Both the position numbers and the translations under genes were made by a program. From assembly GCF_006716315.1 (NCBI RefSeq), contig NZ_VFOV01000001.1, positions 850,501 to 914,500 on the forward strand: a stretch of 64,000 nucleotides of DNA, given 5' to 3'. Position 1 is the first letter of the stretch. Each line of letters begins with the position of its first letter. This DNA is from Nocardioides albertanoniae. Its GTDB lineage: Bacteria; Actinomycetota; Actinomycetes; Propionibacteriales; Nocardioidaceae. Below the pieces are notes generated by a model. It did no database searches, was not told the origin of the DNA, and was given only the letters and a program-made list of their open reading frames with translations. Below, one piece after another: positions 8,449 to 11,148 of the stretch.

Positions 8449-8718
8449 GTGACGAACGCAATAGAGGTTCACTACTGGGCCGCGGCCAAGGCCGCGGCAG
8501 GCACCGGGTCGGACCGGATCGAGGCAGACGGCCCGCTGACGCTGGCCGAGGTCGTACGCCGCGCGGTCGATCTCCACGCCGGCACGCGCCTCTCCGAGGT
8601 GCTCGCGGTGTGCTCCGCCATGGTCGGCGACCAGCCGGTCGGGTCCCAGGATCCGGCATCGGTCGAGGTCGCGCCCGGGTCGACGGTCGAGTTCCTCCCG
8701 CCCTTCGCCGGGGGCTGA
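8449..8718 (+). CDS. MoaD/ThiS-family ubiquitin-like sulfur carrier
   Basis: 89-aa beta-grasp protein ending in FLPPFAGG. The C-terminal Gly-Gly is the site that is adenylated and then thiocarboxylated in sulfur carriers for molybdopterin, thiamin or other pathways. The start is GTG at 8449. It is divergent from glnR and 40 bp upstream of a thioredoxin-like gene, at the head of a sulfur-related run that ends with the rhodanese operon. The partner E1-like enzyme is not in this window, so MoaD function is not proven. Confidence 0.8.
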
Positions 8719-8758: not shown

Positions 8759-9238
8759 GTGCCCCTCGTGAGCACCGGAGCCTGGATCGCCGTCGCCGCC
8801 ATCGTGATCGCGCTGGCGTTCGGTCTGTTCCGCCTGCTCACCGACGGCCATTTCCGAGGTACGAAGGAGCTCGCGGTGTCCGACGAGCCACATGCCGTGC
8901 CGGAGCCGCGCGCGTGGGACGCGGTGACCGATGCACTCCACGAGCGCGACGCGGAGCGCGGTGAGCGGGCCACCCTCGTGCAGTTCTCCAGCGCCTTCTG
9001 CGCCCCGTGCCGCGCCACCCGCCGGATCCTCGGTGAGGTCGCCGAGATCGTGCCGGGCGTGGTCCACATCGAGATCGACGCCGAGCACCACCTCGACCTG
9101 GTGCGACGCCTCGACATCCTGCGTACGCCGACCACGCTGGTGCTCGACGGTGCCGGCGCCGAGGTCGCGCGCGCGACCGGAGCGCCCCGCAAGGAGCAGG
9201 TCCTGAGCGCGATCCCGACCTACGATCTCGAATCCTGA
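8759..9238 (+). CDS. membrane-anchored thioredoxin-like protein (ThiX-like)
   Basis: 159 aa. An N-terminal membrane segment (about residues 7-27, [20 protein letters not shown]) is followed by a thioredoxin fold (about 50-155) with active site FCAPCRAT, a CxxC with a cis-Pro loop later (RTPTTLVLD). It probably acts as a thiol-disulfide reductase at the membrane. The corresponding gene near M. tuberculosis cysA2 is Rv0816c (thiX). The annotated start is GTG 8759; a second GTG at 8768 would lose three residues. It precedes the sulfurtransferase operon in the same direction. Confidence 0.8.
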
Positions 9239-9290
9239 AACGCGCGTCCGCGATGCGAGACATTCATTTCGCGTCCGATCCGGCTCGCGC

Positions 9291-9296
9291 TACTGT
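9291..9296 (+). promoter_or_regulatory. -10 box of the sulfurtransferase operon (leaderless leader ORF)
   Basis: TACTGT lies 6 nt before the ATG at 9303, placing the expected transcription start on the first base of the leader ORF. The -35 region is weak (ttcgcg near 9268). Confidence 0.6.
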
Positions 9297-9302
9297 CATT
9301 CC

Positions 9303-9383
9303 ATGTTCTCGACCATGCTGACCAAGCGCCGCGCAGTGGACCACTGCCGCGTGCGCTCGGCGCTGTGTCGTTCCTGCCGCTGA
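9303..9383 (+). CDS. leaderless 26-aa cysteine-containing leader peptide, probable attenuator
   Basis: Short ORF of 26 codons (MFSTMLTKRRAVDHC then RVRSALCRSCR) ending TGA 9381-9383, 93 bp upstream of the DUF4395 gene. It carries three Cys codons, two in the last five residues. It follows the pattern of actinobacterial putative leader peptides with a basic middle and an SALC-type C-terminus. In mycobacteria, leaderless cysteine-rich short ORFs are known to attenuate the homologous operon in response to cysteine. Here the ORF has a TACTGT -10 placed for leaderless initiation and is followed by a strong hairpin at 9414-9453. Attenuation is inferred. Confidence 0.75.
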   Translation: MFSTMLTKRRAVDHCRVRSALCRSCR

Positions 9384-9413
9384 ATCCCGAGATTTGTCGA
9401 TCGAGTCGACCCT

Positions 9414-9453
9414 GGGGATCGCTTCGCCTGTCAGGCTCGTCCTGACGATCCCC
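9414..9453 (+). promoter_or_regulatory. candidate attenuator hairpin between leader ORF and DUF4395 gene
   Basis: The outer arms GGGGATCG (9414-9421) and CGATCCCC (9446-9453) are exact inverted repeats. Inside them GTCAGG (9430-9435) pairs with CCTGAC (9441-9446) around a 5-nt loop. The right outer arm is followed by ttctctctc, a modest pyrimidine tail. The DUF4395 ribosome binding site (aggag, about 9465) lies outside the structure, which favours transcriptional over translational control. Confidence 0.6.
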
Positions 9454-9476
9454 TTCTCTCTCGCAGGAGCTGACCC

Positions 9477-9923
9477 ATGTCCGAGACCTCAAGCCAGACG
9501 GCGCCCAAGACCGGCATCGATCCGCGTGGCCCGCAGTTCGCTGCGGCGCTGACCGTTGTCGTGCTTCTCCTGGCGCTGCTGCTCCCACAGCCGTGGGCGC
9601 TGGTGGTGACCGCCGTCCAGACGGTGCTCTTCGCCATTGGTGCGGGTCTCGGTGTGCAGCGCACGCCACACGCGTGGCTGTTCAAGACGCTCCTGCGCCC
9701 CCGACTCAGCGCTCCGCACGAGCTCGAGGATCCGGCACCGCCGCGTTTCGCCCAGGGTGTCGGCCTGGCGTTCACGGTCGTCGGCCTCGTCGCCTATCTC
9801 CTCAGCGCGACGCTCGTGGCCCAGATCGCCCTCGGGTTCGCGCTGCTCGCGGCCGTGCTCAACGCCGTGTTCCGGTTCTGCCTCGGCTGCGAGGTCTACC
9901 TCCTGATCAAGCGCTTCGCCTGA
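9477..9923 (+). CDS. DUF4395 integral membrane protein of the sulfurtransferase operon
   Basis: 148-aa membrane protein with about four hydrophobic segments (near 21-36, 40-58, 98-114, 116-132) and a conserved FCLGCEVYL near the C-terminus whose CxxC pair may carry or exchange sulfur. The homolog in M. tuberculosis is Rv0817c, always beside a thiosulfate sulfurtransferase. It has a good ribosome binding site (aggag 8 nt before ATG), unlike the leaderless ORF before it. It is followed 72 bp later by the rhodanese gene. The molecular function of DUF4395 is not established. Confidence 0.85.
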   Translation: MSETSSQTAPKTGIDPRGPQFAAALTVVVLLLALLLPQPWALVVTAVQTVLFAIGAGLGVQRTPHAWLFKTLLRPRLSAPHELEDPAPPRFAQGVGLAFTVVGLVAYLLSATLVAQIALGFALLAAVLNAVFRFCLGCEVYLLIKRFA

Positions 9924-9995: not shown

Positions 9996-10844
9996 ATGAC
10001 CCGCGAGAACTCCCTCGTCTCCGCCCAGTGGGTGGAGGAGCACCTCGAGGACCCGAAGGTGGTGCTGATCGAGGTCGACGAAGACACCACCGCCTACGAC
10101 AAGGGCCACATCAAGGGTGCGATCAAGCTCGACTGGACCACTGATCTGCAGGACCAGGTCCGCCGCGACTTCGTCAGCAAGGACCAGTTCTCCGCGCTGC
10201 TCTCCGAGCGCGGCGTCGCCAACGACGACACCGTGGTGCTCTACGGCGGCAACAACAACTGGTTCGCGGCGTACGCGTTCTGGTACTTCAAGCTCTACGG
10301 CCACCAGGACGTCAAGCTTCTCGACGGCGGCCGCAAGAAGTGGGAGCTCGACTCCCGCGAGCTGACCAACGACGCCGTCACCCGCGAGGCGACGACCTAC
10401 ACGGCGCAGGAGCAGGACCTCTCGATCCGCGCCTTCCGCGACGAGGCCGTCGAGGCCATCGGCGTCAAGAACCTCGTCGACGTGCGCTCGCCCGACGAGT
10501 ACGCCGGTCGCCTGCTGGCCCCGGCTCACCTGCCGCAGGAGCAGGCCCAGCGCGCCGGCCACGTGCCGACCTCGATCAATGTGCCGTGGAGCAAGGCGGC
10601 CAACGACGACGGCACCTTCCGGTCCGACGACGAGCTGCGTGTGATCTACGGCGAGGCCGGTCTCGACGACAGCAAGGAGACCATCGCCCTGTGCCGGATC
10701 GGCGAGCGCTCCTCGCACACCTGGTTCGTGCTCAAGGAGCTCCTCGGTCACGAGAGCGTGAAGAACTACGACGGCTCCTGGACCGAGTACGGCTCGCTCG
10801 TCGGCGTGCCCGTGGCCCTCGGCGACGAGCCCGGGGAGGCCTGA
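9996..10844 (+). CDS. thiosulfate sulfurtransferase, tandem-rhodanese (CysA2/SseA type)
   Basis: 282-aa two-domain rhodanese. The N-terminal inactive domain (about 1-130) includes DTVVLYGGNNNWFAAYAFW. The C-terminal catalytic domain (about 145-280) has the persulfide Cys233 in ALCRIGERSSHTWF and the entry motif NLVDVRSPDEYAG. It moves sulfane sulfur from thiosulfate to a thiophilic acceptor. M. tuberculosis CysA2 (Rv0815c) is the close equivalent. The DUF1416 gene follows 4 bp later, so the two are cotranscribed. An aaagg ribosome binding site precedes the ATG. Confidence 0.92.
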   Translation: MTRENSLVSAQWVEEHLEDPKVVLIEVDEDTTAYDKGHIKGAIKLDWTTDLQDQVRRDFVSKDQFSALLSERGVANDDTVVLYGGNNNWFAAYAFWYFKLYGHQDVKLLDGGRKKWELDSRELTNDAVTREATTYTAQEQDLSIRAFRDEAVEAIGVKNLVDVRSPDEYAGRLLAPAHLPQEQAQRAGHVPTSINVPWSKAANDDGTFRSDDELRVIYGEAGLDDSKETIALCRIGERSSHTWFVLKELLGHESVKNYDGSWTEYGSLVGVPVALGDEPGEA

Positions 10845-10848
10845 GCGC

Positions 10849-11148
10849 ATGTGCGGAGCAACTGAGGGCGGACTCTCGCTCGACGGCGTCGATGTCGCCA
10901 AGGAAGCAGTCATCCAGGGTCAGGTGACCCGCGAGGGTGCGCCGGTCAACGGTGCCTACGTGCGCCTGCTCGACCGCACCGGCGAGTTCACCGCCGAGGT
11001 GCCGACCTCGGCCACCGGCCACTTCCGGTTCTTCGCCGGCGACGGCGAGTGGACCCTGCGTACGCTCGCGCCGAAGGCGGAGCCGGTGGACAAGCTGGTC
11101 CACGCCGCGGTCGGAAACGTCGCCGAGGTGACGATCCCGATCGGCTGA
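10849..11148 (+). CDS. DUF1416 (SseC-type) protein
   Basis: 99-aa beta-rich protein of the DUF1416 family, named sseC in mycobacteria (Rv0814c) and found directly after the sulfurtransferase. It begins MCGATEGGLSLDGVDVAKEA, with a conserved Cys at position 2, and has a transthyretin-like strand pattern (VIQGQVTREGAPVNGAYVRL). It is separated from the rhodanese by 4 bp and followed by a strong terminator, so it ends the operon. The function is unknown; Cys2 could be the acceptor for rhodanese persulfide, which is inference only. Confidence 0.88.
   Translation: MCGATEGGLSLDGVDVAKEAVIQGQVTREGAPVNGAYVRLLDRTGEFTAEVPTSATGHFRFFAGDGEWTLRTLAPKAEPVDKLVHAAVGNVAEVTIPIG

Follow-up and report, generated by a model that had tools for sequence, protein, structure and literature searches.

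A cysteine-containing leader ORF upstream of the sulfurtransferase operon

The locus considered here raises the question of whether an ORF of 26 codons, three of them encoding Cys, which ends 93 bases before the first gene of a predicted sulfurtransferase operon, controls that operon, and by what route. In the window (the whole 64,000-nt stretch of DNA that was analysed), the preliminary description had noted a TACTGT element, an ATG opening the short ORF, and an exact outer stem with an inner stem behind it, all of which can be read directly in the sequence: ATG 9303 is preceded by TACTGT with six bases between; the Cys codons are codons 15 (TGC, 9345), 22 (TGT, 9366) and 25 (TGC, 9375); and GGGGATCG (9414-9421) and CGATCCCC (9446-9453) form the outer stem, with the inner stem GTCAGG/CCTGAC at 9430-9446. 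The gene order DUF4395-rhodanese-DUF1416 after the leader is borne out by Pfam matches, and the rhodanese also matches the 3-mercaptopyruvate sulfurtransferase model PRK11493 (E 3.8e-33, below cutoff). The features are as follows.

8449-8718: MoaD/ThiS-like gene, 5′ of the leader
8759-9238: thioredoxin-like gene, 5′ of the leader
9291-9296, plus strand: TACTGT, read as the putative -10 element of a leaderless promoter, predicted transcription start site (TSS) 9303
9303-9383, plus strand: leader ORF MFSTMLTKRRAVDHCRVRSALCRSCR, 26 codons from ATG 9303, homologue of the Ms5788A family (NF042933 and NF042934 matches)
9327-9341, plus strand: RRAVD, codons 9-13, peptide motif conserved in the alignment of family leaders
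9366-9368, plus strand: codon 22, TGT, candidate for the regulatory Cys codon, from codon counts at its place relative to the motif
9370-9377, plus strand: GTTCCTGC, predicted anti-Shine-Dalgarno (anti-SD) segment, partner of 9463-9470 (8 bp in the MFE fold; own-versus-swapped pairing tests)
9414-9453, plus strand: hairpin GGGGATCG...CGATCCCC and its inner stem GTCAGG/CCTGAC, interpreted as a spacer fold
9463-9470, plus strand: GCAGGAGC, Shine-Dalgarno (SD) site of the DUF4395 gene, directly 5′ of ATG 9477
9477-9923, plus strand: DUF4395 protein, first gene 3′ of the leader (PF14340, E 1.7e-39)
9996-10844, plus strand: rhodanese-type sulfurtransferase (PF00581, E 4.6e-34)
10849-11148, plus strand: DUF1416 protein (PF07210, E 1.9e-38)

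An Rfam identity for the leader region was considered and rejected, the one match being a weak minus-strand hit to a Yersinia sRNA (10.8 bits versus 315).

Homology, distribution and predicted leaderless start

To judge from sequence comparison, homology and not chance likeness underlies the resemblance between the window leader and the mycobacterial type, because the window leader matches both NF042933, the "Ms5788A family Cys-rich leader peptide" (E 1.4e-9, 37.4 bits, under the cutoff of 45), and NF042934, the cis_reg_atten "putative leader peptide" (E 1e-5, 25 bits, under the cutoff of 27), and because Ms5788A-type leaders of the family that we label f4 carry the motif LTRRRAVDLCR. The f4 leaders read ...LTRRRAVDLCRLGGCCC..., that is, the motif common with the window leader followed by a Cys run. 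These matches support the link to the mycobacterial leader drawn in the preliminary description. NF042933 matches 25 of the 31 f4 genomes, two of them above cutoff, and also gave a weak match in one of 14 control genomes; among 63 leaders scanned, window included, 55 matched NF042934 and 45 matched NF042933 at E<=0.01. As first described, the Cys codons of the window ORF are spread out, with no two consecutive, and a CC run is found in 15/15 f4 leaders versus 1/88 leaders from the window's own family. The run in the poly-Cys leaders of f4 (L288-L302) is often TGT TGC TGT, with TGT at +11 in 12, TGC at +12 in 11 and TGT at +13 in 15 of the 15, counting from the RRxVD motif.

The leader was found in 89 of 100 sampled genomes of the same family (E<=0.01) and in 89 of 118 genomes of the same class (E<=0.001, with as many as six matches in one genome), the window's own genome being counted in both, and N. 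albus JCM 3185 encodes a leader peptide identical to the window's. From a phylum sample of 119 genomes, four matched at E<=1e-4, namely the window's genome and three of the same class. The suggestion that the mechanism is wider than mycobacteria therefore holds as far as presence well outside that group is concerned, but this spread had already been recognised, both in the NCBIfam families and, in its accessible part, in a 2005 paper (PMC1262725). The family set comprises 91 matches with one (G067:C14) left out, the class matches used are 103 from a longer list, taken almost entirely in E-value order, and the named loci are the best 80 of at least 210 confirmed; the named and family sets may have species in common, and the 289 leader records reduce to 271 distinct ORFs which are not phylogenetically independent.

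A leaderless layout is likewise supported at the level of sequence, since a TANNNT hexamer starts 12 or 13 bases 5′ of the start codon in 84/89 family relatives. From this spacing we infer that transcription starts at or beside ATG 9303, with ribosomes starting directly on the ATG. A simple consensus scan of 9200-9600 found no two-hexamer sigma-70 promoter and no -35, so that the putative leader promoter is marked by its -10 element alone. Start codons of the class loci were picked with a preference for TANNNT, and their -10 counts were set aside for that reason. Five leaders located before sulfite reductase genes (L217, L220, L224, L265 and L002) have GAGACT instead of TANNNT near the -10 place, and perhaps represent another promoter class.

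Codon choice in the conserved peptide core

Alignment of the leader across relatives, which the preliminary description had proposed, revealed a conserved core peptide with varying synonymous codons. The L, first R, V, D and second Cys residues are invariant in 90/90 family leaders, the second R is kept in 83, and the codons of the invariant L, R, V and D differ synonymously between leaders. Over codons -3 to +14 of 88 family leaders, 18020 of 23257 pairwise cases of one-base codon differences are synonymous, a fraction of 0.775 versus 0.274 expected, the pairs being not independent. With 89/100 family genomes carrying it, 84/89 having the same -10 spacing, and 77% of core differences being synonymous, the leader exceeds chance. 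Amino acids other than Cys would thus appear to matter, bearing in mind that the leaders were collected by their peptide. A third Cys (codon 25) was rejected as a general feature, only 6 of 85 family leaders having Cys at that place. Separately, at the Ala codon +2 (in the region 9333-9347 of the window), GCA or GCG is used by 189 of the 194 leaders whose +6 codon is TGC, by 11 of the 13 with TGT at +6, and by 7 of the 17 that lack Cys at +6; GCA accounts for 54% at this position versus 7% in the background, and a short GCA-UGC hairpin within the ORF may be kept in the leaders.

For codon counts, the 271 distinct leader ORFs were aligned on RRxVD, with positions counted from the motif. Among the matches listed, a Cys lies 13 codons after the motif in 271/271, and this second motif Cys is encoded by TGT in 268 and by TGC in three, while the first motif Cys, at +6, is TGC in 210 and TGT in 13 (6% TGT). 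Cys codons in the downstream ORFs of 178 loci are TGC in 276 cases and TGT in 21 (21/297, 7%), and 53 mechanically chosen long ORFs of the window contain 119 TGC and 14 TGT (14/133). TGT is also used in 35 of 36 single-Cys leaders. The leader collection could not have favoured TGT at +13, because the searches work on protein, or on a DNA pattern that stops short of this position. The three exceptions (L264, L267 and L277) come from three genomes of family f26 with a G+C of 0.46-0.48, in which TGT makes up 0.37-0.50 of Cys codons (92-100 long ORFs each) and is not rare; four loci at 0.54-0.57 G+C keep TGT at +13. The near-invariance of TGT at the second motif Cys appears to be new; our literature search found no earlier report of it, a weak negative given that few subscription papers were covered.

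Among the loci of 47 tRNA matches, the window's genome has one tRNA-Cys gene, with anticodon GCA, so that UGU would be read by wobble. Rare leader codons have been explained by selective charging of isoacceptors (PMC1183508, in its accessible part); that explanation is inapplicable here, because one tRNA-Cys gene reads both Cys codons. The codon counts suggest that the choice of UGU is part of the cysteine sensor.

Predicted pairing between the leader end and the Shine-Dalgarno site

In the MFE fold of the window leader, GTTCCTGC (9370-9377) pairs over 8 bp with GCAGGAGC (9463-9470); the fold has a z of -2.0, and 7/200 shuffles were equally stable. The predicted unpaired probability of the SD is 0.00 in the whole leader and also 0.00 with a ribosome placed at the first Cys, anti-SD free, rising to 0.32, or to about 0.43-0.45 with a shorter 3′ end, when a ribosome at UGU-22 masks the RNA. 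The UGU begins 12 bases 5′ of the stop in 83 of 88 family leaders and 15 bases 5′ of it in the window, and in many relatives with DUF4395 as the first gene the last codons plus stop (e.g. UCCUGA) pair with UCAGGA.

We compared the pairing energy of each leader end with its own SD region and with the SD regions of other loci, leaving out L047 (unclear downstream start) and L099 (another gene). The class set, from which the named Nocardioidaceae were removed and in which up to five sulfite-reductase loci of f1 genomes were kept, comprises by first residues downstream 53 DUF4395, 21 rhodanese, 15 sulfite-reductase and 22 other loci. Own pairing was better both in the family (85 loci, p 0.001 and 0.0005) and in the class set (111 loci, z -6.2 and -6.6), in statistics that ignore phylogeny and with downstream starts called by script. 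The signal is present in DUF4395-first loci (z -4.9, n=66, family; z -6.2, n=53, class) and in sulfite-reductase class loci (z -2.3, n=15), whereas rhodanese-first loci have no own-SD pairing signal (z +0.7, n=21, class; z +1.2, n=19, family) and are likely to be under another mode of control. The leader is kept with its UGU in rhodanese-first loci such as L125 and L208.

Relatedness contributes to the signal of the mixed class set, because controls there are significant too (upstream DNA with SD, z -3.95; ORF start with SD, z -2.6; CDS controls not significant), and the upstream control still gives z -2.2 in DUF4395-first class loci. In the family, ORF start with SD gave p 0.047 and the other controls were not significant. 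A sliding scan peaks at stop-12..+6 in both sets (z -2.9, 72 loci; z -5.1, 98 loci), a segment which opens at the UGU in most leaders, and in the class set has a second peak at stop-61..-29 (stop-61..-43, z -4.9; stop-47..-29, z -3.8). Masking through the first stop base changed predicted SD exposure by more than 0.2 upward in 19 and downward in five of 88 family loci, and upward in 22 and downward in one of 111 class loci. Overall, an ORF end that is complementary to the SD and co-changes with it, as in a translational attenuator, is found in DUF4395-first and not in rhodanese-first loci, which provides good comparative evidence that pairing of the leader end with the SD holds for loci such as the window's.

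The GGGGATCG/CGATCCCC hairpin sits between the anti-SD and the SD. N. albus retains the outer stem, and in N. luteus that stem has an A-C mismatch with no compensating change; a simple scan of 9200-9600 yielded no terminator-like site, the hairpin having no T-run (U-tract). On the scan and the mismatch, we rejected the reading of the hairpin as a terminator. As to the hairpin being a switch, an earlier expectation that these features do not sustain, pairing of the ORF end with the SD is the better supported arrangement; the hairpin is probably a spacer fold bringing anti-SD and SD together.

Proposed mechanism and alternative explanations

On balance we regard it as fairly probable that the window leader controls the operon by translational attenuation in response to cysteine. 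Transcription would start at or next to ATG 9303, judging by the -10 spacing, and ribosomes would load directly there. In the free transcript, or after normal termination at 9383, 9370-9377 would pair with the SD at 9463-9470 and close the first gene. Should Cys-tRNA run short, a ribosome would wait with codon 22 (UGU) in its A site. A waiting ribosome covers about 12 bases ahead, and here it would cover the RNA to about 9378, the whole anti-SD included, freeing the SD and permitting translation of DUF4395-rhodanese-DUF1416. The main sensor would be UGU as a rare, presumably slowly decoded codon, read by a G-U wobble of the single tRNA-Cys (GCA). The first Cys codon could not act by this route, because a ribosome waiting there would leave the anti-SD free; codon 25, present in the window but not in most relatives, could also act.

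The peptide itself might be responsible for the arrest, nascent LT[KR]RRxVD stalling the ribosome, perhaps by sensing a sulfur metabolite and with UGU helping. With codon 22 in the A site this motif would stand some 9-13 residues away from the peptidyl transferase centre, the core is conserved beyond Cys (77% synonymous differences), the Cys stands 13 codons after the motif in every one of the 271 leaders among the matches listed, and 36 leaders have a single Cys; yet the profile and regular expression by which leaders were collected and aligned favour the motif, and we find this comparison-based reading rather unlikely. Rho-dependent premature termination once the ribosome leaves the ORF, with waiting ribosomes or structure blocking Rho, would supply the other mode that rhodanese-first loci without SD pairing need, and was weakly predicted for mycobacterial cys leaders in 2005 (PMC1262725, in its accessible part), but it leaves the SD pairing of DUF4395-first loci unexplained and is unlikely for the window.

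That RNA pairing with the 5′ end of the ORF, and not decoding, holds the UGU in place appears more unlikely still. CGAC in codons 3-4 complements the GUCG within UGU-CG, a pairing of the third U with A or G is predicted in 67/88 family and 74/111 class loci, and pairing of the UGU region with the ORF start reaches z -4.1 in the class; in the family, however, this pairing does not reach significance (z -1.5), the predicted partner falls within the ORF start in 50/88 family and 46/111 class loci, the other loci having a partner outside it or none at all, and just three of the 271 leaders among the matches listed have UGC despite varied partners. Codon -6 (9309-9314 in the window) is TCG or ACG in 76 of 88 family leaders, giving CGAC, the complement of GUCG. 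Least plausible, to the point of being highly improbable, is transcription attenuation, in which GGGGATCG/CGATCCCC would act as terminator and ATCCC (9384-9388) would pair with GGGAT as antiterminator when a ribosome waits upstream. The sequence allows only one of these two pairings at a time, the hairpin persists in N. albus, and in the family the post-stop segment pairs with its own intergenic region better than with swapped ones (0/2000 permutations). Against these points, the class set gives no significant post-stop pairing (p 0.27), N. luteus has the hairpin mismatch, the tail reads TTCTCTCTC, and the intrinsic terminator 5′ of the first gene that defines a classical transcription attenuator was not found by the simple scan of 9200-9600.

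Relation to known leaders and a putative sulfur regulon

Comparison of the proposed translational attenuator with described systems draws on the accessible parts of the papers cited in this paragraph. A Cys-rich leaderless sORF before cysA2 in mycobacteria was reported by Shell 2015 (PMC4633059), with attenuation as a speculation; relatives in M. smegmatis (Canestrari 2020) are described as cysteine-dependent translational attenuators (PMC13236596, PMC9031893), in which the cysteine codons have been called likely essential (PMC9094748). The window leader is similar to Ms5788A and the mycobacterial polycysteine sORFs in its predicted leaderless layout and in the motif LT[KR]RRAVD.CR (as in f4 leaders), and differs in having no Cys run and in scoring 37.4 bits versus the cutoff of 45; it also has the motif of NF042934, but scores under that cutoff (25 vs 27 bits), and the name of that model states no mechanism. 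Candidate cys leaders were listed in 2005 from Mycobacterium, P. acnes and B. longum, their mode being called unknown (PMC1262725); as in the window, they are Cys leaders without an obvious terminator before cys genes, but they contain Cys runs, while the window has no run and an indicated SD pairing. The LEU element of the same paper, in which Leu codons pair with the leuA SD, is a close analogue of the window pairing. A transcriptome-based list of S. lividans leaders includes none called cysteine-dependent in the part available (PMC8079986). Before cysS in Rhodobacterales, uORFC-8-2 also has Cys codons in a short leader ORF, but these are tandem with UGC dominant, and it has an intrinsic terminator and belongs to another phylum (PMC8632094). 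The Salmonella leu leader, with rare CUA codons, similarly uses a rare synonymous codon as sensor, but acts by transcription attenuation with separate isoacceptors, whereas here one tRNA gene serves both Cys codons (PMC1183508).

A second leader in the same genome, L002 (C1:2082418-2082468, minus strand), reads MVTAATHAHLVVRRHVDYCRIRSAICWRH, with TGT four codons before the stop; it precedes an apparent sulfite reductase gene, named from the NIR_SIR match of its relative L217. When 16 of 178 downstream proteins, of less common types and chosen by eye, were scanned, 12 of these class-set proteins had a sulfur-linked best match, several below curated cutoffs: nitrite/sulfite reductase (twice), ThiS-like, CbiX, a Cys/Met PLP enzyme, SsuA, SsuE, TauE, a sulfate-binding protein, sulfite dehydrogenase-like, alkanesulfonate monooxygenase and sulfonate ATPase-like. 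The remaining four (L249, L262, L234, and L258 with a response-regulator domain) had no clear sulfur link. In one family genome, a leader with one motif Cys (L099) precedes a DctA/GltP-like symporter, possibly a cystine carrier.

We put forward tentatively, as a possibility that we do not favour outright, that leaders throughout the class sense cysteine by a rare, wobble-read UGU 13 codons after RRxVD, with the motif in the tunnel helping the arrest, so that the cysteine sensor of an entire sulfur regulon would be defined by codon and nascent peptide jointly, with the poly-Cys form of mycobacteria as a derived variant. That 268 of the 271 leaders among the matches listed retain one synonymous codon makes this a clear-cut and testable example of codon choice acting as a signal, and SD pairing is one answer to how terminator-less actinobacterial cys leaders may work, a point left open in 2005 in the accessible part of PMC1262725. 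The survey as a whole outlines a cis-controlled sulfur regulon across a large class, including sulfurtransferase, sulfite reductase, and sulfate and sulfonate uptake.
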